A DNA stretch of 64,000 nt from Zunongwangia profunda SM-A87 (GTDB lineage Bacteria; Bacteroidota; Bacteroidia; Flavobacteriales; Flavobacteriaceae), in contig NC_014041.1 of assembly GCF_000023465.1 (NCBI RefSeq), positions 1,881,001 to 1,945,000 of the forward strand, in the 5' to 3' direction. Below the pieces are notes generated by a model. It searched no databases and was not told where the DNA came from. It was given only the letters and a program-made list of their open reading frames with translations. Positions 52,023-58,857 of the stretch are shown here, piece by piece; position 1 is the stretch's first letter; every line of letters starts with the position of its first letter. The translations under genes were made by a program, and so were the position numbers.

Positions 52023-52066
52023 GTAACATCAGTTACCAAGATTGGAATCAATTCTTAATATTTTTG
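52023..52066 (+). promoter_or_regulatory. Crp/Fnr-type operator and -7 element, DUF983-crp operon
   Basis: GTAAC-ATCA-GTTAC at 52023-52036, and TATTTTTG at 52059-52066, 36 bp from operator start to -7 start. Operator centre is near -41, typical of class II activation. A weak mirror -7 (TAGGTTCG, 51993-52000 on the minus strand) sits at the same distance toward the asparaginase gene. Confidence 0.75.
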
Positions 52067-52083
52067 TTATTAAAAGAAAAAAA

Positions 52084-52470
52084 TTGAAAAGACCTTATCT
52101 TTACAGTCTCTTGTTTTTAAAGTGCCCGCAATGTAGGCAAGGGGAGTTTCTTGAAGCGCACCCTTACAAGCTTTCCAAAATGAACAAGGTCAAAGAGTCT
52201 TGCCCGAAATGTGGACTAAAATATAGTATTGAACCTGCTTTTTACACTGGTTCAATGTATGTGTCTTATGGGGTGGGAATTGCAGTAGGTGTTGCTGTTT
52301 TCGTCCTGACCTATTTTACAGGATTAGCAAGACATCCATTGGCCATTTTTGGTTATATCGTTTTGGGTCTGTTTTTATTAATGCCCTACATAGGTGCCGT
52401 TTCAAAATCTATTTGGGCGCACTTCTTTTTCAAATACGACCCAGAGGTTGCTAAAAAAGTAAAAGGATGA
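52084..52470 (+). CDS. DUF983 membrane protein
   Basis: 128 residues from a TTG at 52084; an in-frame TTG at 52042 lies between operator and -7 element and would be upstream of transcription. The N-terminal zinc-ribbon-like motif CPQCRQ...CPKCG precedes two transmembrane helices (about 62-82 and 88-108). DUF983 proteins are small membrane proteins of unknown function in Bacteroidota. Its stop overlaps the start of the Crp/Fnr gene (ATGA), so the two are one operon under the GTAAC operator. Confidence 0.8.
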   Translation: MKRPYLYSLLFLKCPQCRQGEFLEAHPYKLSKMNKVKESCPKCGLKYSIEPAFYTGSMYVSYGVGIAVGVAVFVLTYFTGLARHPLAIFGYIVLGLFLLMPYIGAVSKSIWAHFFFKYDPEVAKKVKG

Positions 52471-53093
52471 TTCAAGAACTAAAAAAACACTATGGCTCTG
52501 TATTTGAACCAGCACTTATAGACGAAATAAACCAGGTCGCAACCTTTATGGAAGTACCCGAAGGGCAAGATTTATTAAAACCTGGTCAGTATATTAAATC
52601 GATGCCTTTATTACTTTCTGGAAGCATAAAAATAATGCGTCCCGATGCCGATGGAGAAGAGTTATTACTATACCATCTTGAAAAAGGCGACACCTGTGCA
52701 ATGACGATGACTTGCTGTATGGGAAATACAAAGAGCGAAATACACGCTGTTTCTGAAACACCTGCAAAGCTACTTATGGTACCTATTGGTAAAATGGAAG
52801 AATGGTCGAGAAAATATAAAACTTGGCGCAATTTTGTTTTTGAAAGTTATCACGTGCGTATGATGGAAATGCTTGAAAGCATTGATAATATTGCGTTCAA
52901 CAATATGGACGAACGATTGGAAAAGTATCTTCAGAATAAAATTGAAATTTTAAATAGTAAGCATATTTACACGACCCATAAAGAGATAGCTCAAGATTTG
53001 CATACAAGTCGTGTCGTGGTTTCCAGACTGCTTAAAAGAATGGAAAACGATAAAAAAATTATATTACATAGAAGTTTTATTGAAGTCTTGTAA
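52467..53093 (+). CDS. Crp/Fnr-family transcriptional regulator, probable regulator of the sulfur block
   Basis: 208 residues. A cNMP-binding-like beta barrel (about 25-115) includes LLKPGQYIKSMPLLLSGSIK. It has the cysteine-rich motif TCAMTMTCCMG (Cys77, Cys83, Cys84) in place of the usual cyclic-nucleotide pocket. The dimer helix follows, then a winged helix (about 165-200), THKEIAQDLHTSRVVVSRLL. No Fe-S ligand set like that of Fnr is evident. The cysteine cluster could react with sulfane sulfur or redox signals. Its own operon and four neighbouring transcripts carry the same GTAAC-N4-GTTAC site, making it the likely activator. Confidence 0.88.
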   Translation: MIQELKKHYGSVFEPALIDEINQVATFMEVPEGQDLLKPGQYIKSMPLLLSGSIKIMRPDADGEELLLYHLEKGDTCAMTMTCCMGNTKSEIHAVSETPAKLLMVPIGKMEEWSRKYKTWRNFVFESYHVRMMEMLESIDNIAFNNMDERLEKYLQNKIEILNSKHIYTTHKEIAQDLHTSRVVVSRLLKRMENDKKIILHRSFIEVL

Positions 53094-53133
53094 CATCAGT
53101 TACAAAAATTTAATATACCTACAAGTACATTTG
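53090..53133 (+). promoter_or_regulatory. Crp/Fnr-type operator and -7 element, tauE
   Basis: GTAAC-ATCA-GTTAC at 53090-53103 (overlapping the end of the crp gene) and TACATTTG at 53126-53133, 36 bp apart start to start; tauE ATG at 53154. Confidence 0.78.
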
Positions 53134-53153
53134 TCCCATAATTGATTTGACAA

Positions 53154-53957
53154 ATGGAAATTGTAGAAATTTTAGGATACATAGGTTCGCTTTTCATTGG
53201 GCTCGTTTTAGGATTAATTGGCGGTGGTGGCTCAATTCTTACCGTTCCCATTTTAGTATATGCACTTTCTCTCAACCCAATAATAGCTACAGCATACTCG
53301 TTGTTTGTGGTGGGTACAACTTCATTGGTAGGAGCAATTAAAAATATGAAAAAGGGTAAAGTAGATTTTAAAACAGCCCTTATTTTTGCCGTTCCCGCTT
53401 TTACAGCTGTATATTTAACAAGAGCTTATTTAATCCCAGTAATTCCAGAACAACTTTTTGATGTTAAAAATTTTATGGTCACAAAAAATTTGGCCATTAT
53501 GCTCTTTTTTGCCATTGTAATGCTTTTGGCATCTATTACTATGATTCGCAATGGAAATCGGCAGTTTAATTCCGAAGTAATTGAAAAAAAATCTAATTAT
53601 CTTTTATTGAGTGTACAAGGTCTTTTCATAGGAGTTGTAACCGGAATGGTAGGCGCAGGAGGTGGTTTCTTGATTATCCCTGCTTTGGTACTCTTAGCCA
53701 AATTACCAATGAAAAAAGCAGTTGCAACCTCTCTTTTTATAATTGCTATTAATTCGTTAATAGGGTTTTTGGGAGATGTACAAAATTTAGATATTGATTG
53801 GCCATTCCTATTGATCTTTACAGGAATTTCAATAGTGGGTATTTTTATTGGGATTTGGCTTAATAAATTTATTGATGGTAAAAAATTGAAAAAGGCATTC
53901 GGATGGTTTGTGCTCATAATGGGAGTCTATATTATTTATAAGGAATTAAGTACATAA
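53154..53957 (+). CDS. TauE/SafE-family sulfite/anion exporter
   Basis: 267 residues, highly hydrophobic with about eight transmembrane helices. The repeat motif LGLIGGGGSILTVPIL in the first half and TGMVGAGGGFLIIPAL in the second half is the TauE/SafE signature. Members export sulfite or sulfoacetate or import/export small anions. In this cluster with a persulfide-dioxygenase-like enzyme, sulfite export is the natural reading: dioxygenase action on persulfide makes sulfite. The gene lies 6 bp upstream of the sterol-desaturase-like gene. Confidence 0.9.
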   Translation: MEIVEILGYIGSLFIGLVLGLIGGGGSILTVPILVYALSLNPIIATAYSLFVVGTTSLVGAIKNMKKGKVDFKTALIFAVPAFTAVYLTRAYLIPVIPEQLFDVKNFMVTKNLAIMLFFAIVMLLASITMIRNGNRQFNSEVIEKKSNYLLLSVQGLFIGVVTGMVGAGGGFLIIPALVLLAKLPMKKAVATSLFIIAINSLIGFLGDVQNLDIDWPFLLIFTGISIVGIFIGIWLNKFIDGKKLKKAFGWFVLIMGVYIIYKELST

Positions 53958-53963
53958 CAGATT

Positions 53964-54845
53964 TTGGAAAAGTATATTGACATCATCTTAAATTCATTTT
54001 CAGGTTACTGGAATTATCTTGGCAAGGAAATATCCGACCCATCTTGGACCAATTATTTTTATTGGTTGTTAGCATTATCCTTACTCGTGTTTCTATTGGA
54101 AATTATTGTGCCTTGGCGAAAGAAACAGTCTATAATTAGAAAAGGGTTCTGGCTTGATGCTTTTTACATTCTTTTCAATTTCTTCTTGTTTTCTTTAATT
54201 GGTTACAATGCACTATCTAATGTTGGCGTAGCATTATTTAATGACTTCTTGGGCCTATTTGGTATTACAAATATTGTGGCATTAGAGGTGCAGACACTTC
54301 CCGTATGGTCGCAACTTTTTATAATGTTCATCGTTGCAGATTTCATCCAATGGAACGTTCACAGATTGCTACATCGTGTACCGTGGCTATGGCAATTCCA
54401 TAAGGTTCATCACAGCGTAAAGGAAATGGGATTTGCCGCACAGTTCCGTTTTCATTTTATGGAAACCATCGTCTATAAATCCATTCAATATGTCCCATTT
54501 GCATTGATAGGTTTCGGTATCGAGCAATTTTTTGTCGTGCATATGTTTGCCGTCTTTGTAGGCCATCTCAATCACGCAAACCTTGACTGGAGCTATGGAA
54601 AGTTAGGCTACGTATTCAACAATCCTCGTATGCATATTTGGCATCATTCCAAAGAATTGCCAGAAAAACATCCATATGGGATGAATTTTGGTCTTACCTT
54701 GAGTATTTGGGATTACCTTTTTAGAACCGCCTACGTTCCCAAAAGTGGTAGGGATATCGAATTAGGCTTTGAAGACGACACTAATTTTCCAAGAACTTTT
54801 TTGGAACAGATGAAATATCCGTTTAAGAAAACCAAAGAAGCGTAA
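53964..54845 (+). CDS. Sterol desaturase / fatty-acid hydroxylase family protein
   Basis: 293 residues with four to five membrane helices and the three histidine clusters of di-iron hydroxylases: NVHRLLHRVPWLWQFHKVHH, FVGHLNHAN, and PRMHIWHHSKELPEKH. A TTG start at 53964 follows tauE by 6 bp and is the only usable start before the first helix. Family members hydroxylate or desaturate lipids. Its presence in sulfur gene clusters of Bacteroidota is recurrent, but its substrate here is unknown; membrane lipid adaptation is a guess. Confidence 0.85.
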   Translation: MEKYIDIILNSFSGYWNYLGKEISDPSWTNYFYWLLALSLLVFLLEIIVPWRKKQSIIRKGFWLDAFYILFNFFLFSLIGYNALSNVGVALFNDFLGLFGITNIVALEVQTLPVWSQLFIMFIVADFIQWNVHRLLHRVPWLWQFHKVHHSVKEMGFAAQFRFHFMETIVYKSIQYVPFALIGFGIEQFFVVHMFAVFVGHLNHANLDWSYGKLGYVFNNPRMHIWHHSKELPEKHPYGMNFGLTLSIWDYLFRTAYVPKSGRDIELGFEDDTNFPRTFLEQMKYPFKKTKEA

Positions 54846-54885
54846 CATTGGTTACTGAAAAACAGTATTGTGCCGCATAATTTTA
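54842..54885 (+). promoter_or_regulatory. Crp/Fnr-type operator and -7 element, MBL-rhodanese
   Basis: GTAAC-ATTG-GTTAC at 54842-54855 and TAATTTTA at 54878-54885, 36 bp apart. The ATG is at 54973, giving an 80-nt leader with a REP-like hairpin at 54907-54942. Confidence 0.75.
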
Positions 54886-54906
54886 TCATATAAAAAAAGT
54901 AATTCA

Positions 54907-54942
54907 GCTTTCGCGTCGTGCCTGCCAGCAGGCAGGAAAGCG
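54907..54942. repeat. REP-like palindromic element in a leader
   Basis: GCTTTCGCG (54907-54915) and AAAGCG (54937-54942) flank the palindrome CCTGCC-AGCA-GGCAGG (54921-54936). The outer arms resemble the palindrome CGCTTTCGCGAAAGCG at 56841-56856, so this looks like the same dispersed element with a second palindrome inserted. Confidence 0.6.
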
Positions 54943-54972
54943 TAATTTCAAAAAACATTAAAATCAAATAGT

Positions 54973-56391
54973 ATGAAAATCGAACAAATTTATACTGGAT
55001 GTTTGGCGCAGGGAGCCTACTATATTGAAAGCAAAGGCGAAGTAGCCATCATAGACCCGTTGCGTGAAGTGCAACCCTATATTGACAAATCGGAAGCGGC
55101 AGGCTCAAAAATCAAATACATTTTTGAGACCCACTTTCACGCCGATTTTGTTTCGGGTCACGTAACCCTTTCAGAAAAAACGGGTGCACCCATTATTTAT
55201 GGGCCCAATGCCAATCCAAATTTTGAATCGATAACAGCAAAAGATGGGCAGGAATTCAAATTGGGCGAATTGACTTTTGTAGTACTGCATACACCAGGAC
55301 ATACAATGGAGAGCACTACCTATCTGTTGCGTGACAAGAACGGAAAAGACCACGCGTTGTTTACGGGCGATACGCTCTTTTTAGGCGATGTTGGCCGTCC
55401 AGACCTTGCGCAAAAGGCAGCACATATGACACAGGAAGAATTGGCCGGAACGCTCTACGATAGCCTGCGCAATAAAATAATGCCCCTTGCAGATGATATT
55501 ACGGTTTATCCCGCACACGGTGCAGGTTCGGCCTGTGGCAAGAATATGATGAAGGAAACCGTGGATACATTGGGCAACCAAAAGCAAATGAACTACGCGC
55601 TGCGTGCCGATATGAGCAAAGAAGAGTTCATCAAAGAAGTGACCGATGGCCTACTGCCGCCACCAGCCTATTTCCCGATGAATGTAAAACTGAACAAAGA
55701 AGGCTATAAGGATATTGATGACGTCATCGCTCAAGGCGAAAATGCCCTGTCCCCAGATGCCTTTGAAGCGGCCGCCAATGAAACAGGTGCCGTAATGTTG
55801 GACACGAGACACCAGAACGATTTTGCCAAAGGGCATATTCCCGGCTCAATTTTCATAGGTATCGATGGTAGTTTTGCGCCTTGGGTGGGCGATTTGATAA
55901 AAGATGTTCAACAACCTATTTTATTGATAGCAGATAAAGACCGCATAGAAGAGGTCATCACACGTTTATCGCGTGTAGGTTTCGATAATACGATGGGTTA
56001 TCTCGATGGTGGTTTTGAAGCTTGGAAAAAAGCGAGCAAAGAATATGACACGGTAACTTCCATTCCAGCAACAGAGTTTAAACAGATTGAAGATGACAGT
56101 AATAATGATGTTCCCGTATTTGATGTAAGAAAGTCAGGGGAGTTCCAGAGTGAACACGTTGTTAATGCAAACCATACATCCCTGTCCGAAATTAACGACC
56201 ACTTAGCCGGATATCCAGACAATGAAACTTTTTACGTGCATTGTGCAGGTGGCTATCGCAGTATGATTGCAGCTTCCATTTTAAAAAGCAGGGGTATCCA
56301 CAACTTAATTGATGTTCAGGGTGGTTTTAAGGCTATAAAAGAAGCAGGAGTGGAAACCACCGATTATGTGTGCCCATCCACGTTAAAATAA
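54973..56391 (+). CDS. Persulfide dioxygenase-like metallo-beta-lactamase fused to two rhodanese domains
   Basis: 472 residues. The N-terminal metallo-beta-lactamase domain is of the ETHE1 type: THFHADFVSGH (His54, His56, Asp58, His63), LHTPGHTME (His110), FTGDTLF (Asp133) and YPAHGAG. The first rhodanese domain (about 265-350) has DTRHQNDFAKGHIPGSIF but lacks the active-site cysteine (LIADKD in its place), so it is probably structural. The second (about 370-465) has FYVHCAGGYRS with Cys424 active. Expected role: oxidising glutathione or other persulfide to sulfite and moving sulfane sulfur. It is cytoplasmic, has its own operator, and ends at a terminator shared with the convergent methyltransferase gene. 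Confidence 0.92.
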   Translation: MKIEQIYTGCLAQGAYYIESKGEVAIIDPLREVQPYIDKSEAAGSKIKYIFETHFHADFVSGHVTLSEKTGAPIIYGPNANPNFESITAKDGQEFKLGELTFVVLHTPGHTMESTTYLLRDKNGKDHALFTGDTLFLGDVGRPDLAQKAAHMTQEELAGTLYDSLRNKIMPLADDITVYPAHGAGSACGKNMMKETVDTLGNQKQMNYALRADMSKEEFIKEVTDGLLPPPAYFPMNVKLNKEGYKDIDDVIAQGENALSPDAFEAAANETGAVMLDTRHQNDFAKGHIPGSIFIGIDGSFAPWVGDLIKDVQQPILLIADKDRIEEVITRLSRVGFDNTMGYLDGGFEAWKKASKEYDTVTSIPATEFKQIEDDSNNDVPVFDVRKSGEFQSEHVVNANHTSLSEINDHLAGYPDNETFYVHCAGGYRSMIAASILKSRGIHNLIDVQGGFKAIKEAGVETTDYVCPSTLK

Positions 56392-56417
56392 AAGCTTGGT
56401 TTTAGTAAAGCAAAGAG

Positions 56418-56452
56418 TATAAAGCGGCAAGTGATTGTCGCTTTATATTTTT
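56418..56452 (+). terminator. Terminator after the MBL-rhodanese gene
   Basis: TATAAAGCG pairs with CGCTTTATA across a short inner stem (GCAA/TTGT with one G-U) and is followed by T residues; it sits between convergent genes. Confidence 0.8.
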
Positions 56453-57044
56453 AGGATTTTTTCTTAAATACTAATGTGGTCATCGCTCGCTCATCTTGTA
56501 CATTAGTAGTTTTTACGGGTTCAATGAGCTCAACCGTAAATTCCTTTAGTAAGTTTTCAATCCTTTCACGAGTAAGATAATATGTCCCCTTTTGCCCATT
56601 TTCCTTATATGTGATTTCTGGGGCATTACCGTCCAGACCAATATTTGATGCCATTCTAATGAGCAATGAGCCATTGGGTTTCAGTACACGAACCAATTCT
56701 GAAAACATAGCGGTAAATTGGGTTTGGCTTTGTGCGAAATGCAAAACAGCGCAACATAGAATATGGTCAAAACTGTTTTGGTCGTACGGTAACTTATCTA
56801 AACTTCCAACACTAAAATTTTTGCCGTATTCTGGGTATTCCGCTTTCGCGAAAGCGAGAAAATCAACATCCTTATCTATTCCGTACAGCTCAAAATCGTT
56901 TTGGTAAGACCATTTTAGGTTTCTGCCCTTTCCGCATCCCGCATCTAGGATGGATTGACCTTCTTGATAGCGTCCTTTTAGGATTTGGTCAATCACGTAG
57001 ATGTCAACATTGCCGATTAAATTGAAAGTGTTCTTGTAATTCAT
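56451..57044 (-). CDS. Class I SAM-dependent methyltransferase
   Basis: 197 residues. Motif I is LDAGCGKGRNLKW, then the acidic GIDKDVDFLAFAKAE, motif II-III region FDHILCCAVLHFA and post-motif LVRVLKPNGSLLI. It belongs to small methyltransferases in sulfur and chalcogen stress clusters. No substrate-recognition domain is obvious. It carries a palindromic element in its coding region (56841-56856, encoding AFAKA). Its start is 49 bp upstream of the peroxiredoxin operator, in the other direction. Confidence 0.85.
   Translation of the reverse strand: MNYKNTFNLIGNVDIYVIDQILKGRYQEGQSILDAGCGKGRNLKWSYQNDFELYGIDKDVDFLAFAKAEYPEYGKNFSVGSLDKLPYDQNSFDHILCCAVLHFAQSQTQFTAMFSELVRVLKPNGSLLIRMASNIGLDGNAPEITYKENGQKGTYYLTRERIENLLKEFTVELIEPVKTTNVQDERAMTTLVFKKKS
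56841..56856. repeat. 16-bp palindrome inside the methyltransferase gene
   Basis: Perfect palindrome CGCTTTCGCGAAAGCG. It lies in frame and encodes AFAKA, as a dispersed palindrome that has been accommodated in a coding region would. Confidence 0.75.
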
Positions 57045-57092
57045 ACATCCATAATTGAATCAACAATATAAAAAGAATTAATCGCGGTTTAT

Positions 57093-57136
57093 GTAACTCT
57101 TGTTACTGTCTTTGCACGGTATTCTGCATAATTTTA
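57093..57136 (+). promoter_or_regulatory. Crp/Fnr-type operator and -7 element, peroxiredoxin
   Basis: GTAAC-TCTT-GTTAC at 57093-57106 and TAATTTTA at 57129-57136, 36 bp apart; peroxiredoxin ATG at 57161. The mirrored position toward the methyltransferase gene has only a poor -7 match (TATATTGT). Confidence 0.78.
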
Positions 57137-57160
57137 TACCTCAGAACAAAGGGAAATACT

Positions 57161-57820
57161 ATGGAAAACACAATTGAAAATGGCGTAACATCAATGCCAA
57201 GAATTGGCGACGAAGCCCCCGATTTTAAAGCAAAGACAACTAAGGGCGACATCCAGATGGCAGACTTTGCAAAGGACAAATGGATAGTGATGTTCTCTCA
57301 CCCAGCAGACTTTACACCCGTTTGTACCACCGAGATGAGTGGCTTTGCAACCCGTAAAGAAGAATTTGATGCACTTAACACGGAACTTCTTGGATTAAGC
57401 ATCGATAGCATACACGCTCACTTAGGGTGGGTTGCCAACGTAAGGGAAAAAACAGGGGTTTATTTTGACTTCCCGATTATTGCAGATATCGATATGAAGG
57501 TTTCAAAGCTTTACGGAATGCTGCAACCCAACGAGAGTGAAACTGCAGCCGTACGCGCGGTTTTCTTTATCGACCCTAAAAAGAAAATCCGTTTGATTAT
57601 GTACTATCCGCTTAACGTGGGTAGAAATATGGACGAGATTTTAAGATCCCTTGAGGCTTTGCAAACTTCAGATAAACACGGCGTGGCTATGCCGCTGGAC
57701 TGGAAAAAAGGCGACAAGGTAATTGTGCCGCCACCAAAAAATCTTGAAGAAATGGAAGCACGTATCGCAGATGATAGCTGTGAAAAAGTAGATTTTTATT
57801 TAGCGAAAAAATTCTTGTAA
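57161..57820 (+). CDS. Peroxiredoxin, Prx6 type
   Basis: 219 residues. The peroxidatic cysteine lies in SHPADFTPVCTTEMSGF (Cys55). The C-terminal dimer arm with KHGVAMPLDWKKGDKVIVPP is characteristic of the Prx6 subfamily. A second cysteine (about Cys207, DDSCEKVD) near the C-terminus may act in resolving. It reduces peroxides and may react with persulfides. Regulation by the same operator as the sulfur genes suggests joint use in reactive sulfur or oxygen stress. Confidence 0.95.
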   Translation: MENTIENGVTSMPRIGDEAPDFKAKTTKGDIQMADFAKDKWIVMFSHPADFTPVCTTEMSGFATRKEEFDALNTELLGLSIDSIHAHLGWVANVREKTGVYFDFPIIADIDMKVSKLYGMLQPNESETAAVRAVFFIDPKKKIRLIMYYPLNVGRNMDEILRSLEALQTSDKHGVAMPLDWKKGDKVIVPPPKNLEEMEARIADDSCEKVDFYLAKKFL

Positions 57821-57860
57821 GCAATCAAGTTGGTTTTGCAAGTTAAGGTTGGTTAGTAGG

Positions 57861-57890
57861 GAAGCGACGAGTAATCGTCGCTTCTTTTTT
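57861..57890 (+). terminator. Rho-independent terminator after the peroxiredoxin gene
   Basis: GAAGCGACGA-GTAA-TCGTCGCTTC perfect stem followed by six T. Confidence 0.92.
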
Positions 57891-57898
57891 GGACTACT

Positions 57899-57942
57899 GT
57901 AACATAGGTTACTAACTTCTTACTTCTTCATCCTTAATTTTA
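57899..57942 (+). promoter_or_regulatory. Crp/Fnr-type operator and -7 element, rhodanese operon
   Basis: GTAAC-ATAG-GTTAC at 57899-57912 and TAATTTTA at 57935-57942, 36 bp apart; the first rhodanese ATG is at 57966. Confidence 0.78.
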
Positions 57943-57965: not shown

Positions 57966-58340
57966 ATGAAGAAAATAGCAATAATTATAATACTTATGAG
58001 CACTCTCTCTGGCGCAAATGCGCAACAAAACGACACATTAAAAATCTTAACAGCTTCAGAATTTAATGAAGCCATCAAAAACAACAATGTTCAGTTGATA
58101 GATGTACGTACTGCAAAAGAATTTAGCGAAGGAGCAATTAAAAACGCATTGAATATCGACTTCTTTCAGCAAGAAACGTTCAATAAAGAATTTGGTAAGC
58201 TGAATAAAGAACAACCTGTCTATCTCTACTGTCGTTCAGGAAACCGAAGTCAGCAGGCAGCCAGGAAGTTAGACTCTTTAGGTTTTAAGAAAATCTATGA
58301 TTTGAAAGGCGGTTATATGGGCTGGCCGTATAAAAAATAG
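57966..58340 (+). CDS. Exported single-domain rhodanese
   Basis: 124 residues: Sec signal peptide (MKKIAIIIILMSTLSGANA, cleavage before QQND), then a rhodanese fold with LIDVRTAKEFSEGAIKNA and active-site VYLYCRSGNRSQQ (Cys89). It would move sulfane sulfur between thiols in the periplasm. It is the first gene of a two-rhodanese unit, 19 bp before the second rhodanese start at 58360. Confidence 0.92.
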   Translation: MKKIAIIIILMSTLSGANAQQNDTLKILTASEFNEAIKNNNVQLIDVRTAKEFSEGAIKNALNIDFFQQETFNKEFGKLNKEQPVYLYCRSGNRSQQAARKLDSLGFKKIYDLKGGYMGWPYKK

Positions 58341-58359
58341 CCCGATGTATCAAACAAAT

Positions 58360-58857
58360 ATGAAGACTCTTCTGACGATTTTTGCGGTTACCCTATTTGC
58401 CTTGACCACGGCTGCTCAAAAGCCCGTGGACAATCCAGAGTATCAAAAAATGCTGGACACATTGTTAACGCACTCTGTAAATGAGATTTCGCCAAACGAA
58501 GTTCAACCCAATAAGGATGTTATTTTCCTGGACACAAGAGCAAAAAAGGAATTCAAGGTAAGCCGTATAGATGGGGCGATTTGGGTAGGTTTTTTATCTT
58601 TTAATAAGCGTAGAGTAAAAGAGATTCCAAAAGATAAAAAAATAATTCTCTATTGTTCAGTAGGATACCGAAGCGAAAAAATTGCAGAAAAATTACAAGA
58701 AGAAGGCTTTACCGATATCCATAATCTATATGGAGGCATTTTTGAATGGCTCAATAAAGGTAAGATCGTGGTAAATGATAAAGGACCTACCCAAGAAATA
58801 CATCCTTACAACAAACATTGGGGACAATGGCTGGATAAAGGGGTTAAGGCTTATTAA
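58360..58857 (+). CDS. Second exported rhodanese
   Basis: 165 residues from the ATG at 58360, chosen over 58345 because it begins a clean signal peptide (MKTLLTIFAVTLFALTTAA). The rhodanese domain has DTRAKKEFKVSRIDGAIWVG and the active-site ILYCSVGYRSEK, ending HPYNKHWGQWLDKGVKAY, a C-terminal extension. Likely periplasmic and co-transcribed with the first rhodanese. Specific thiol acceptor unknown. Confidence 0.9.
   Translation: MKTLLTIFAVTLFALTTAAQKPVDNPEYQKMLDTLLTHSVNEISPNEVQPNKDVIFLDTRAKKEFKVSRIDGAIWVGFLSFNKRRVKEIPKDKKIILYCSVGYRSEKIAEKLQEEGFTDIHNLYGGIFEWLNKGKIVVNDKGPTQEIHPYNKHWGQWLDKGVKAY

Follow-up and report, generated by a model that had tools for sequence, protein, structure and literature searches.

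A 64,000-nucleotide stretch of Zunongwangia profunda SM-A87 DNA (NC_014041.1, positions 1,881,001–1,945,000, part of a single 5.13-Mb contig; hereafter the window) was analysed. It is probably (about 0.75 by our estimate) the control region of a Bacteroidota regulon for sulfide and persulfide handling, in which a Crp/Fnr-family protein would be the class II activator and would most likely respond to sulfane sulfur. The Crp/Fnr protein encoded at 52467–53093 and its paralogue would bind the palindrome GTAACN4GTTAC as a dimer centred at -41.5, and the bound dimer would touch RNA polymerase seated on a sigma-A -7 box (TAnnTTTG), accompanied at best by part of a -33 element; this contact would lead to class II transcription activation. 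Such sites would drive the regulator's own operon and genes for TauE, persulfide dioxygenase-rhodanese, sulfide:quinone reductase (SQR), YeeE transporters, rhodaneses, DsrE/SoxB-like proteins and peroxiredoxin. In the effector pocket, Cys77 and Cys83 would be the residues on which the signal, most likely persulfide or polysulfide, acts. Comparison of sequences among genomes showed that the operator is conserved, that its spacing is fixed and that site and regulator occur together, and it also showed the target genes and the cysteine pattern; the regulon, its geometry and its regulator are well supported at the level of sequence.

Operators and -7 boxes in the window

A pattern scan of the window found five palindromes GTAACN4GTTAC where the initial annotation had placed them, all perfect matches. 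The same annotation claimed a constant distance of 36 bp from operator start to -7 box start, and this held in all five promoters; it corresponds to a 22-nt spacer between operator and box. The sites are:

52023..52036, + strand, operator 1 (GTAACATCAGTTAC), promoter of the DUF983-regulator operon (putative autoregulation)
52059..52066, + strand, -7 box TATTTTTG, 36 bp from operator 1 start; predicted +1 ~52071
53090..53103, + strand, operator 2 (GTAACATCAGTTAC), promoter of the tauE operon; includes the regulator stop codon
53126..53133, + strand, -7 box TACATTTG, tauE promoter
54842..54855, + strand, operator 3 (GTAACATTGGTTAC)
54878..54885, + strand, -7 box TAATTTTA, persulfide dioxygenase promoter
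57093..57106, + strand, operator 4 (GTAACTCTTGTTAC)
57129..57136, + strand, -7 box TAATTTTA, peroxiredoxin promoter
57899..57912, + strand, operator 5 (GTAACATAGGTTAC)
57935..57942, + strand, -7 box TAATTTTA, rhodanese promoter

Operator 1 precedes the DUF983-regulator operon, so the Crp/Fnr gene's own operon does carry the site, as had been proposed. With up to two mismatches allowed, the window held 30 matches to the palindrome versus 20.6 ± 4.3 in shuffled sequences (at least 30 in 4 of 100 shuffles).

Sites across the host genome

The host genome contained 13 perfect palindromes, eight of them clustered within 27 kb. At 12 of the 13, TTT(G/A) stood at the same offset and a gene followed in that direction; ten of these boxes were TAnnTTT(G/A), one was TTTATTTG and one CATATTTG. 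The thirteenth site, judged by eye, falls in a coding region. With the spacer fixed at 22 nt and up to two mismatches, 25 matches were found (four being reverse readings of perfect palindromes) versus 6 for the reversed control. Because 12 of 13 host sites share the offset box and fixed-spacer matches so exceed their control, the composite of operator and box is not chance. The relaxed scan (up to two mismatches) added an OsmC-like gene, a second DUF983 gene and an SQR-neighbouring persulfide dioxygenase.

Outside the window, a perfect site precedes an SQR gene whose product best matched the mitochondrial enzyme 6mp5 in the PDB. Other host sites head a gene for a small leader protein, grouped with DsrE-like, SoxB-like, TlpA-like and DsbD genes; YeeE/YedE genes, as two pairs; another tauE copy, adjoining the 57%-identical regulator paralogue (2.129 Mb) and a gene for cytochrome bd; a fatty acid hydroxylase together with a persulfide dioxygenase-rhodanese; and a further persulfide dioxygenase-rhodanese. 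The SoxB-like gene (L006 13393–15036) scored 262 bits, below the SoxB equivalog cut-off of 550, and is called only SoxB-like. The SQR gene (L006 4560–5810; G000:C1 ~1947560–1948810) has a frame break ~250 nt into the gene, and may be a pseudogene or contain a sequence error.

Spacing and co-occurrence in relatives

One genome per genus, 60 in all, was scanned across the family for operator–box pairs, the gap being left free between 7 and 37 nt. The search gave 111 pairs: 78 at 22 nt, 12 at 21, 2 at 23 and 19 elsewhere; the reversed-pattern control gave 22 pairs at all gaps. Where a regulator of at least 40% identity was encoded, 37 of 47 genomes had the site (21–23 nt), versus 1 of the 13 others (Fisher 5e-6). 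Among 17 further regulators of 40–52% identity, 15 had a perfect or drifted site (e.g. GTAACnnnnATTAC) at 21–23 nt. Fourteen of these 15 sites lay behind the regulator, within ~125 nt of its stop codon, and the 15 included 8 of the 9 genomes of that class having no strict site in the family search.

A second set of 80 named loci, taken around orthologues of the regulator, comprised the best 80 of 580 and is biased, having been found by patterns containing the cysteines or the recognition helix; orthologues from Altibacter lentus and Cellulophaga baltica came up in that search. In its 942 kb there were 171 palindromes versus 4 reversed, and ten Markov resamples gave 0–2. The 22-nt spacing accounted for 83 pairs, and the rest of the 0–60 range for only 12. 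A site (at most one mismatch) with a box on the regulator's own strand was found within 700 nt of 63 of the 80 regulators; on that strand the spacing was 22 in 77 cases and every other spacing occurred at most 5 times, and the opposite strand was flat. Of 53 sites behind the regulator gene, 40 were within 15 nt of its stop codon.

In a set of 247 Bacteroidota genomes, an orthologue of 45% identity or more was accompanied by the site in 17 of 20 cases, while 3 of the 151 genomes with no homologue at E 1e-20 had it. Thus, in family genomes, named loci and Bacteroidota genomes alike, the motif exceeded chance in relatives that keep the regulator. The adjacent Crp/Fnr protein, which the initial annotation had named as the obvious regulator, is, together with its paralogue, the probable regulator by this tracking of its orthologues across 60 and 247 genomes. 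Chance palindromes as an explanation were ruled out by the fixed spacing and the co-occurrence with the regulator, though raw counts alone would not have done so.

It is highly unlikely that another Crp/Fnr protein (e.g. HcpR- or FNR-like) is the true activator and the neighbouring gene merely a target. The host genome does hold 18 cNMP_binding and 5 HTH_Crp_2 matches over cut-off, and the same operator stands 22–23 nt before a box and an hcp-like gene in two of the three genomes that have the site but no homologue, at L334 (G295:C3:771959) and L336 (G287:C12:37675), where HcpR or another Crp/Fnr protein perhaps shares it. Site presence nevertheless follows this regulator in both genome sets, and 18 of 20 low-identity paralogue loci were without the site, the other two sitting in true-orthologue clusters. 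The SRVVVSR helix was seen only in the host's two paralogues; this is a weak point, as the crude scan saw no helix in most of the others and 3 of the 18 were without a locus. A further locus, L335 (G287:C2 ~500–2350), contains open reading frames (ORFs) of a repeated peptide (VVYTTQTSGIHN-like), as from a CRISPR array.

Promoter geometry

The sigma-A box TAnnTTTG of Flavobacterium psychrophilum was mapped at -12 to -5, according to an excerpt of PMC9723704, and the predicted +1 at ~52071 rests on that position. When the same position is applied here, the operator spans -48 to -35, with its centre at -41.5. The constant spacing had been taken as evidence of a class II activator site; the fixed 22-nt spacer puts the predicted centre at -41.5, where class II Crp/Fnr activators bind, and supports that geometry. 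In the 80 named loci, T and G just after the operator (~-34, -33) carried 0.52 bit each and the other spacer positions at most 0.32. Since only this TG is preferred, any -33 element would be partial. The idea that the promoters are copies of a single mobile cassette was ruled out because spacer information was low beyond these first two bases. The start codon lay 15–25 nt after the box in 41 of 73 cases with a start found.

From such comparisons we infer binding, the transcript starts, the signal, and activation as opposed to repression. A repressor whose operator overlaps the -35 region, and which keeps polymerase off until persulfide dislodges it (the mode of CstR and SqrR), is quite unlikely. 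ArsR- and CsoR-type persulfide regulators do act as repressors freed by persulfide. Here, however, the predicted centre is exactly -41.5 in very many promoters of different genes, whereas a repressor would tolerate other positions, and the spacer lacks a full -33 element, which also speaks against repression.

The operator and its geometry are not new in kind, for which NtcA of cyanobacteria is the precedent. An excerpt of PMC3898017 gives for NtcA the operator GTAN8TAC at ~-41.5, a -10 box TAN3T, class II activation and a spacer of 22 nt at hetC and nirA and 23 nt at glnA RNAI. The sites described here share the skeleton GTAN8TAC, the centre, the 22-nt spacer and the presumed class II mode, and NtcA was the second-best PDB family in a single-sequence search with the regulator. 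The two differ in regulon, in signal (2-oxoglutarate for NtcA) and in the box, which is TAnnTTTG rather than TAN3T.

The regulator and its cysteines

The regulator belongs to the Crp/Fnr superfamily. It matched PF00027 (cNMP_binding beta-roll) with 34.8 bits (cut-off 27.5) and PF13545 (Crp-type helix-turn-helix) with 25.8 bits versus 27 on the protein and with 28.3, over cut-off, in the genome scan. Scores against the CRP and NtcA family models (43 and 37.2 bits) were below the cut-offs of 266 and 244.95. A profile search of structures matched CRP, NtcA and 3DV8, the best being 3DV8 (E 3.7e-31), a Crp/Fnr protein of Eubacterium rectale, which belongs to another phylum than the host. 3DV8 has equivalents of Cys77 and Cys83 but no Cys84.

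Cys77, Cys83 and Cys84 were found as the initial annotation gave them. Its statement that they stand in place of a cyclic nucleotide pocket held in part: the cysteines align with the strand that contacts cyclic AMP (cAMP) in CRP, but the equivalent of Ser83 is still S in 57 of 58 orthologues. In CRP, Glu72, Arg82 and Ser83 contact cAMP, Arg82 binding the phosphate. The Arg82-aligned position is not conserved (K in 37 and R in 5 of the 58), the Glu72 region reads CAMT in the regulator, and equivalents of Glu72 and Arg82 were not found. The orthologues came from three overlapping sets of 58, 17 and 80 (L212 and L026 are from the same contig); the 58 were loci kept from longer lists, and the 58 and 17 were found by whole-protein similarity.

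Cys77 was present in all 155 orthologues (58 + 17 + 80, with some overlap). Cys83 was present in 57 of 58, 14 of 17 and 80 of 80 (151 of 155 in the overlapping sets) and in 0 of the 20 paralogues examined; the counts for Cys84 were 54 of 58, 14 of 17, 80 of 80 and 4 of 20. Cys83 marks the regulator group, since it is in nearly all orthologues and no paralogue, whereas Cys77 is common to both. In a tree of 95 proteins, whose bootstrap had not settled, 17 paralogues fell in one supported branch. The pattern fits a pocket rebuilt around thiols, for which sulfane sulfur would be the most economical signal, and sulfane-sulfur sensing, judged from the targets and the cysteines, is a good hypothesis.

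The same regulon and regulator with a heme or redox sensor, in which Cys77 (perhaps with Met79) is a ligand, NO, CO, O2 or redox state is reported and the sulfur genes follow via respiration, is unlikely. Cys77 is universal, also occurring in 19 of 20 paralogues, and Met79 is frequent. CooA was a weak profile match (1ft9, 3.4e-6), with its heme ligand Cys75 within about one residue of Cys77 as judged from alignment ends, and cytochrome bd genes follow two sites. PgRsp of Porphyromonas gingivalis is a Bacteroidota Crp/Fnr protein of no assigned family with a Cys and x-Met near 76–78; it is a heme binder whose Cys76 and Met78 have been probed, and its model was built on 3DV8, the best structure match here (excerpt of PMC6955866). 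By analogy with CooA and PgRsp, the position of Cys77 can serve a heme sensor. Against such a sensor, it is Cys83 and not Cys77 that tracks the regulon, and persulfide chemistry dominates the targets. Moreover, single Ala changes at Cys76, Met78 or His85 left the heme spectra of PgRsp unaltered. The regulon described for PgRsp is a redox one, no operator or sulfur genes being reported in that excerpt (PMC6955866).

That the cysteines bind a metal or an Fe-S cluster is very unlikely. Cys77, Cys83 and Cys84 occur together in most orthologues, HMA-domain and RND genes are among the targets, and the Fe-S ligands of Bacillus subtilis FNR are likewise three Cys and a carboxylate. Cys84, however, is missing in 4 of 58 orthologues and from 3DV8, adjacent CC ligands would be unusual, and the host RND ORF scored best with multidrug-type models rather than CusA/CzcA, none being over cut-off. 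Sensing of sulfane sulfur by the cysteines remains our preferred reading.

Target genes in relatives

First genes were tallied after 89 composite sites, consisting of 87 of the 92 pairs at 21–23 nt and two moved from the off-spacing control; five host-genome pairs were tallied separately. The largest groups were TolC-membrane-fusion protein-RND operons (18), persulfide dioxygenase-rhodanese (15), TauE (12), rhodanese (9) and YeeE (5), followed by SulP-like (3), fatty acid hydroxylase (3) and the regulator (1). DsrE-like, DUF983, CydA, NrfD-like, thioredoxin-like, HMA, Tll0287-like and SoxB-operon leader genes occurred twice each, and 7 sites had other or no genes. Thus 82 of the 89 were assigned, and 50 were plainly sulfur-related. 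By gene content, the predicted regulon is a toolkit for sulfide, persulfide and sulfite to which a large efflux branch is attached.

The off-spacing control took 13 of the 19 pairs at other gaps; two of these (L166, and L170 with TAnnTTTA) also had a box at 22 nt and were moved, leaving 11. Only one of the 11 (L177) precedes a regulon-type gene, a rhodanese. SulP, NrfD/Psr-like, azurin-like, OsmC-like, hcp-like, OGDH-like and TPMT-like labels were given by eye, Pfam was applied to representatives only of the TolC, Tll0287-like, HMA and thioredoxin-like groups, and the DsrE labels after two sites rest on 25–27% identity.

Points against the reading

Several observations weigh against this reading. 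The raw palindrome was not enriched genome-wide in the host, where the backwards-read pattern also occurred 13 times, and the palindrome alone is weak evidence. The Fisher tests count related genomes as independent. No perfect or drifted site was found for 2 of the 17 weak orthologues, and no site (at most one mismatch) near the regulator at 17 of the 80 named loci. Among the 247 Bacteroidota genomes, the site was present in only 6 of the 76 whose homologue is below 45% identity. The operator may not be private to this regulator, because the two regulator-less genomes carry it before an hcp-like gene. Cys77, as noted, is common to 19 of 20 paralogues outside the regulon. One sub-branch inside the orthologue group of the tree (L061, L187, L188, L189 and L298) has lost Cys83 and keeps Cys77, and L187–L189 keep the operator, which argues against a universal need for a dithiol. 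RND efflux (18 of 89), HMA, thioredoxin-like and cytochrome genes widen the regulon beyond sulfur.

The sub-branch without Cys83 is also a natural variant set for the sensor question.

Operator specificity and residue 183

Most orthologues have Val at recognition-helix residue 183. Of the set of 58, ten carry Glu there, every one of them with less than 46% identity, and so do 15 of the 20 paralogues. A search for GTGACN4GTCAC with a box in the 247 genomes gave 16 pairs versus 11 for the reversed control, 8 of them at 22 nt and 2 at 23 nt. Seven of these ten sites (L324–L329 and L331, in G096, G135, G170, G147 and G100) precede rhodanese, persulfide dioxygenase, YeeE or peroxiredoxin genes, the YeeE start lying 429 nt away in L329. 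GTGACN4GTCAC is perhaps an operator variant of the same regulon. It was found in 3 of 10 genomes with a known Glu183 regulator versus 5 of 237 others (p 0.002; the regulators of most of the 237 are unread), and one such site lies just behind a Glu183 paralogue gene (G147). Two genomes are counter-examples: G220 (Glu183) has GTAAC sites before TauE and persulfide dioxygenase genes, and G100 (Val183) has a GTGAC site before a persulfide dioxygenase gene. A residue-183 operator code is suggestive only.

In a bolder form, the proposal would be that a Bacteroidota-wide Crp/Fnr subfamily senses sulfane sulfur via a Cys77-x5-Cys83 dithiol in the old cyclic-nucleotide pocket and runs the sulfide/persulfide defence of the phylum as a class II activator at -41.5, with operator choice partly set by residue 183 (Val for GTAACN4GTTAC, Glu for GTGACN4GTCAC with unchanged spacing and ahead of the same genes). 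We hold this form tentatively, at a little short of an even chance.

Genes under the window sites

The genes following the five operators are:

52084..52470, + strand, DUF983 membrane protein (Pfam DUF983); TTG start at 52084 predicted, ORF listed from 52042
52467..53093, + strand, Crp/Fnr-family regulator; Cys77, Cys83, Cys84; recognition helix SRVVVSRLL
53154..53957, + strand, TauE/SafE-family sulfite exporter (domain match)
53964..54845, + strand, fatty acid hydroxylase-family membrane protein, downstream in the tauE operon
54973..56391, + strand, metallo-beta-lactamase with two rhodanese domains (persulfide dioxygenase-rhodanese, CstB-like)
57161..57820, + strand, peroxiredoxin (AhpC/TSA and 1-Cys Prx C-terminal domain)
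57966..58340, + strand, single-domain rhodanese
58345..58857, + strand, second rhodanese-domain protein, same operon as 57966..58340

For DUF983, the in-frame TTG at 52084 fits better as a predicted start than 52042, which is doubted because it would precede the predicted +1. A DUF983 gene (CxxC membrane protein) stands under the operator at two places, G000:C1:4428886 and window 52042–52470; we know of no role of DUF983 in sulfur metabolism. Fatty acid hydroxylase-family genes are headed directly by the site at other loci. The 54973–56391 product carries, over its full length, a metallo-beta-lactamase domain and two rhodanese domains, and it matched 3tp9 (5.3e-69), 3r2u (1.6e-55) and ETHE1 4chl (3.8e-14). 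By these domains it is a predicted persulfide dioxygenase-rhodanese; no NCBIfam equivalog was over cut-off among the 25 matches listed. In the 87-nt leader of its gene, window 54900–54960 holds an inverted repeat (CCTGCCAGCAGGCAGG within CTTTCGCG...GAAAGCG) that may be a dispersed element. Relatives of the peroxiredoxin (70% identical) are placed after GTGACN4GTCAC sites in two other genomes.

A TolC/RND cluster starts at window 59935. No operator was seen before its TolC gene, though elsewhere 18 of 89 sites head such operons. The membrane-fusion protein gene of this cluster is split into two overlapping ORFs (L006 2463–3568, just past the window end).

Relation to known systems and significance

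The gene set resembles the cst operon of Staphylococcus aureus in its persulfide dioxygenase-rhodanese (best PDB matches 3tp9 and 3r2u, the latter of which we take to be CstB), TauE and SQR. That operon comprises CstR, TauE, CstA, CstB and SQR; CstR is a CsoR-type repressor, whereas the site here is of the Crp/Fnr activator type. FisR, SqrR/BigR and other sulfane-sulfur regulators control sqr and persulfide dioxygenase genes through cysteines, but FisR is a sigma-54 type activator and SqrR/BigR belong to the ArsR family, not to Crp/Fnr.

In an excerpt of a 2022 review of sulfane-sulfur regulators, Crp appears only in the reference list and FNR is not named (PMC9774590). The open-licence papers listed yielded no account of this regulator, operator or regulon, RegPrecise and preprints being outside their scope and absence unproven. 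Among them there was no sulfide/persulfide regulator from the Crp/Fnr family, and none for Bacteroidota. A known design (NtcA-type class II activation and a cst-type gene set) is thus present in a combination for which no description was found there. The observation made in the initial annotation is right and understated.

Several protein families include regulators of the sulfide and persulfide response, and Bacteroidota are a dominant phylum of coastal seas and sediments. The regularity of the site makes the regulon readable from many genomes of the group. It also predicts, very cleanly, how an activator is placed on the unusual promoter of Bacteroidota with its -7 box TAnnTTTG, and offers a natural test of operator-specificity change in Crp/Fnr proteins. 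By the same sites, RND efflux, cytochrome bd, SulP-like and peroxiredoxin genes would be tied to sulfur stress.

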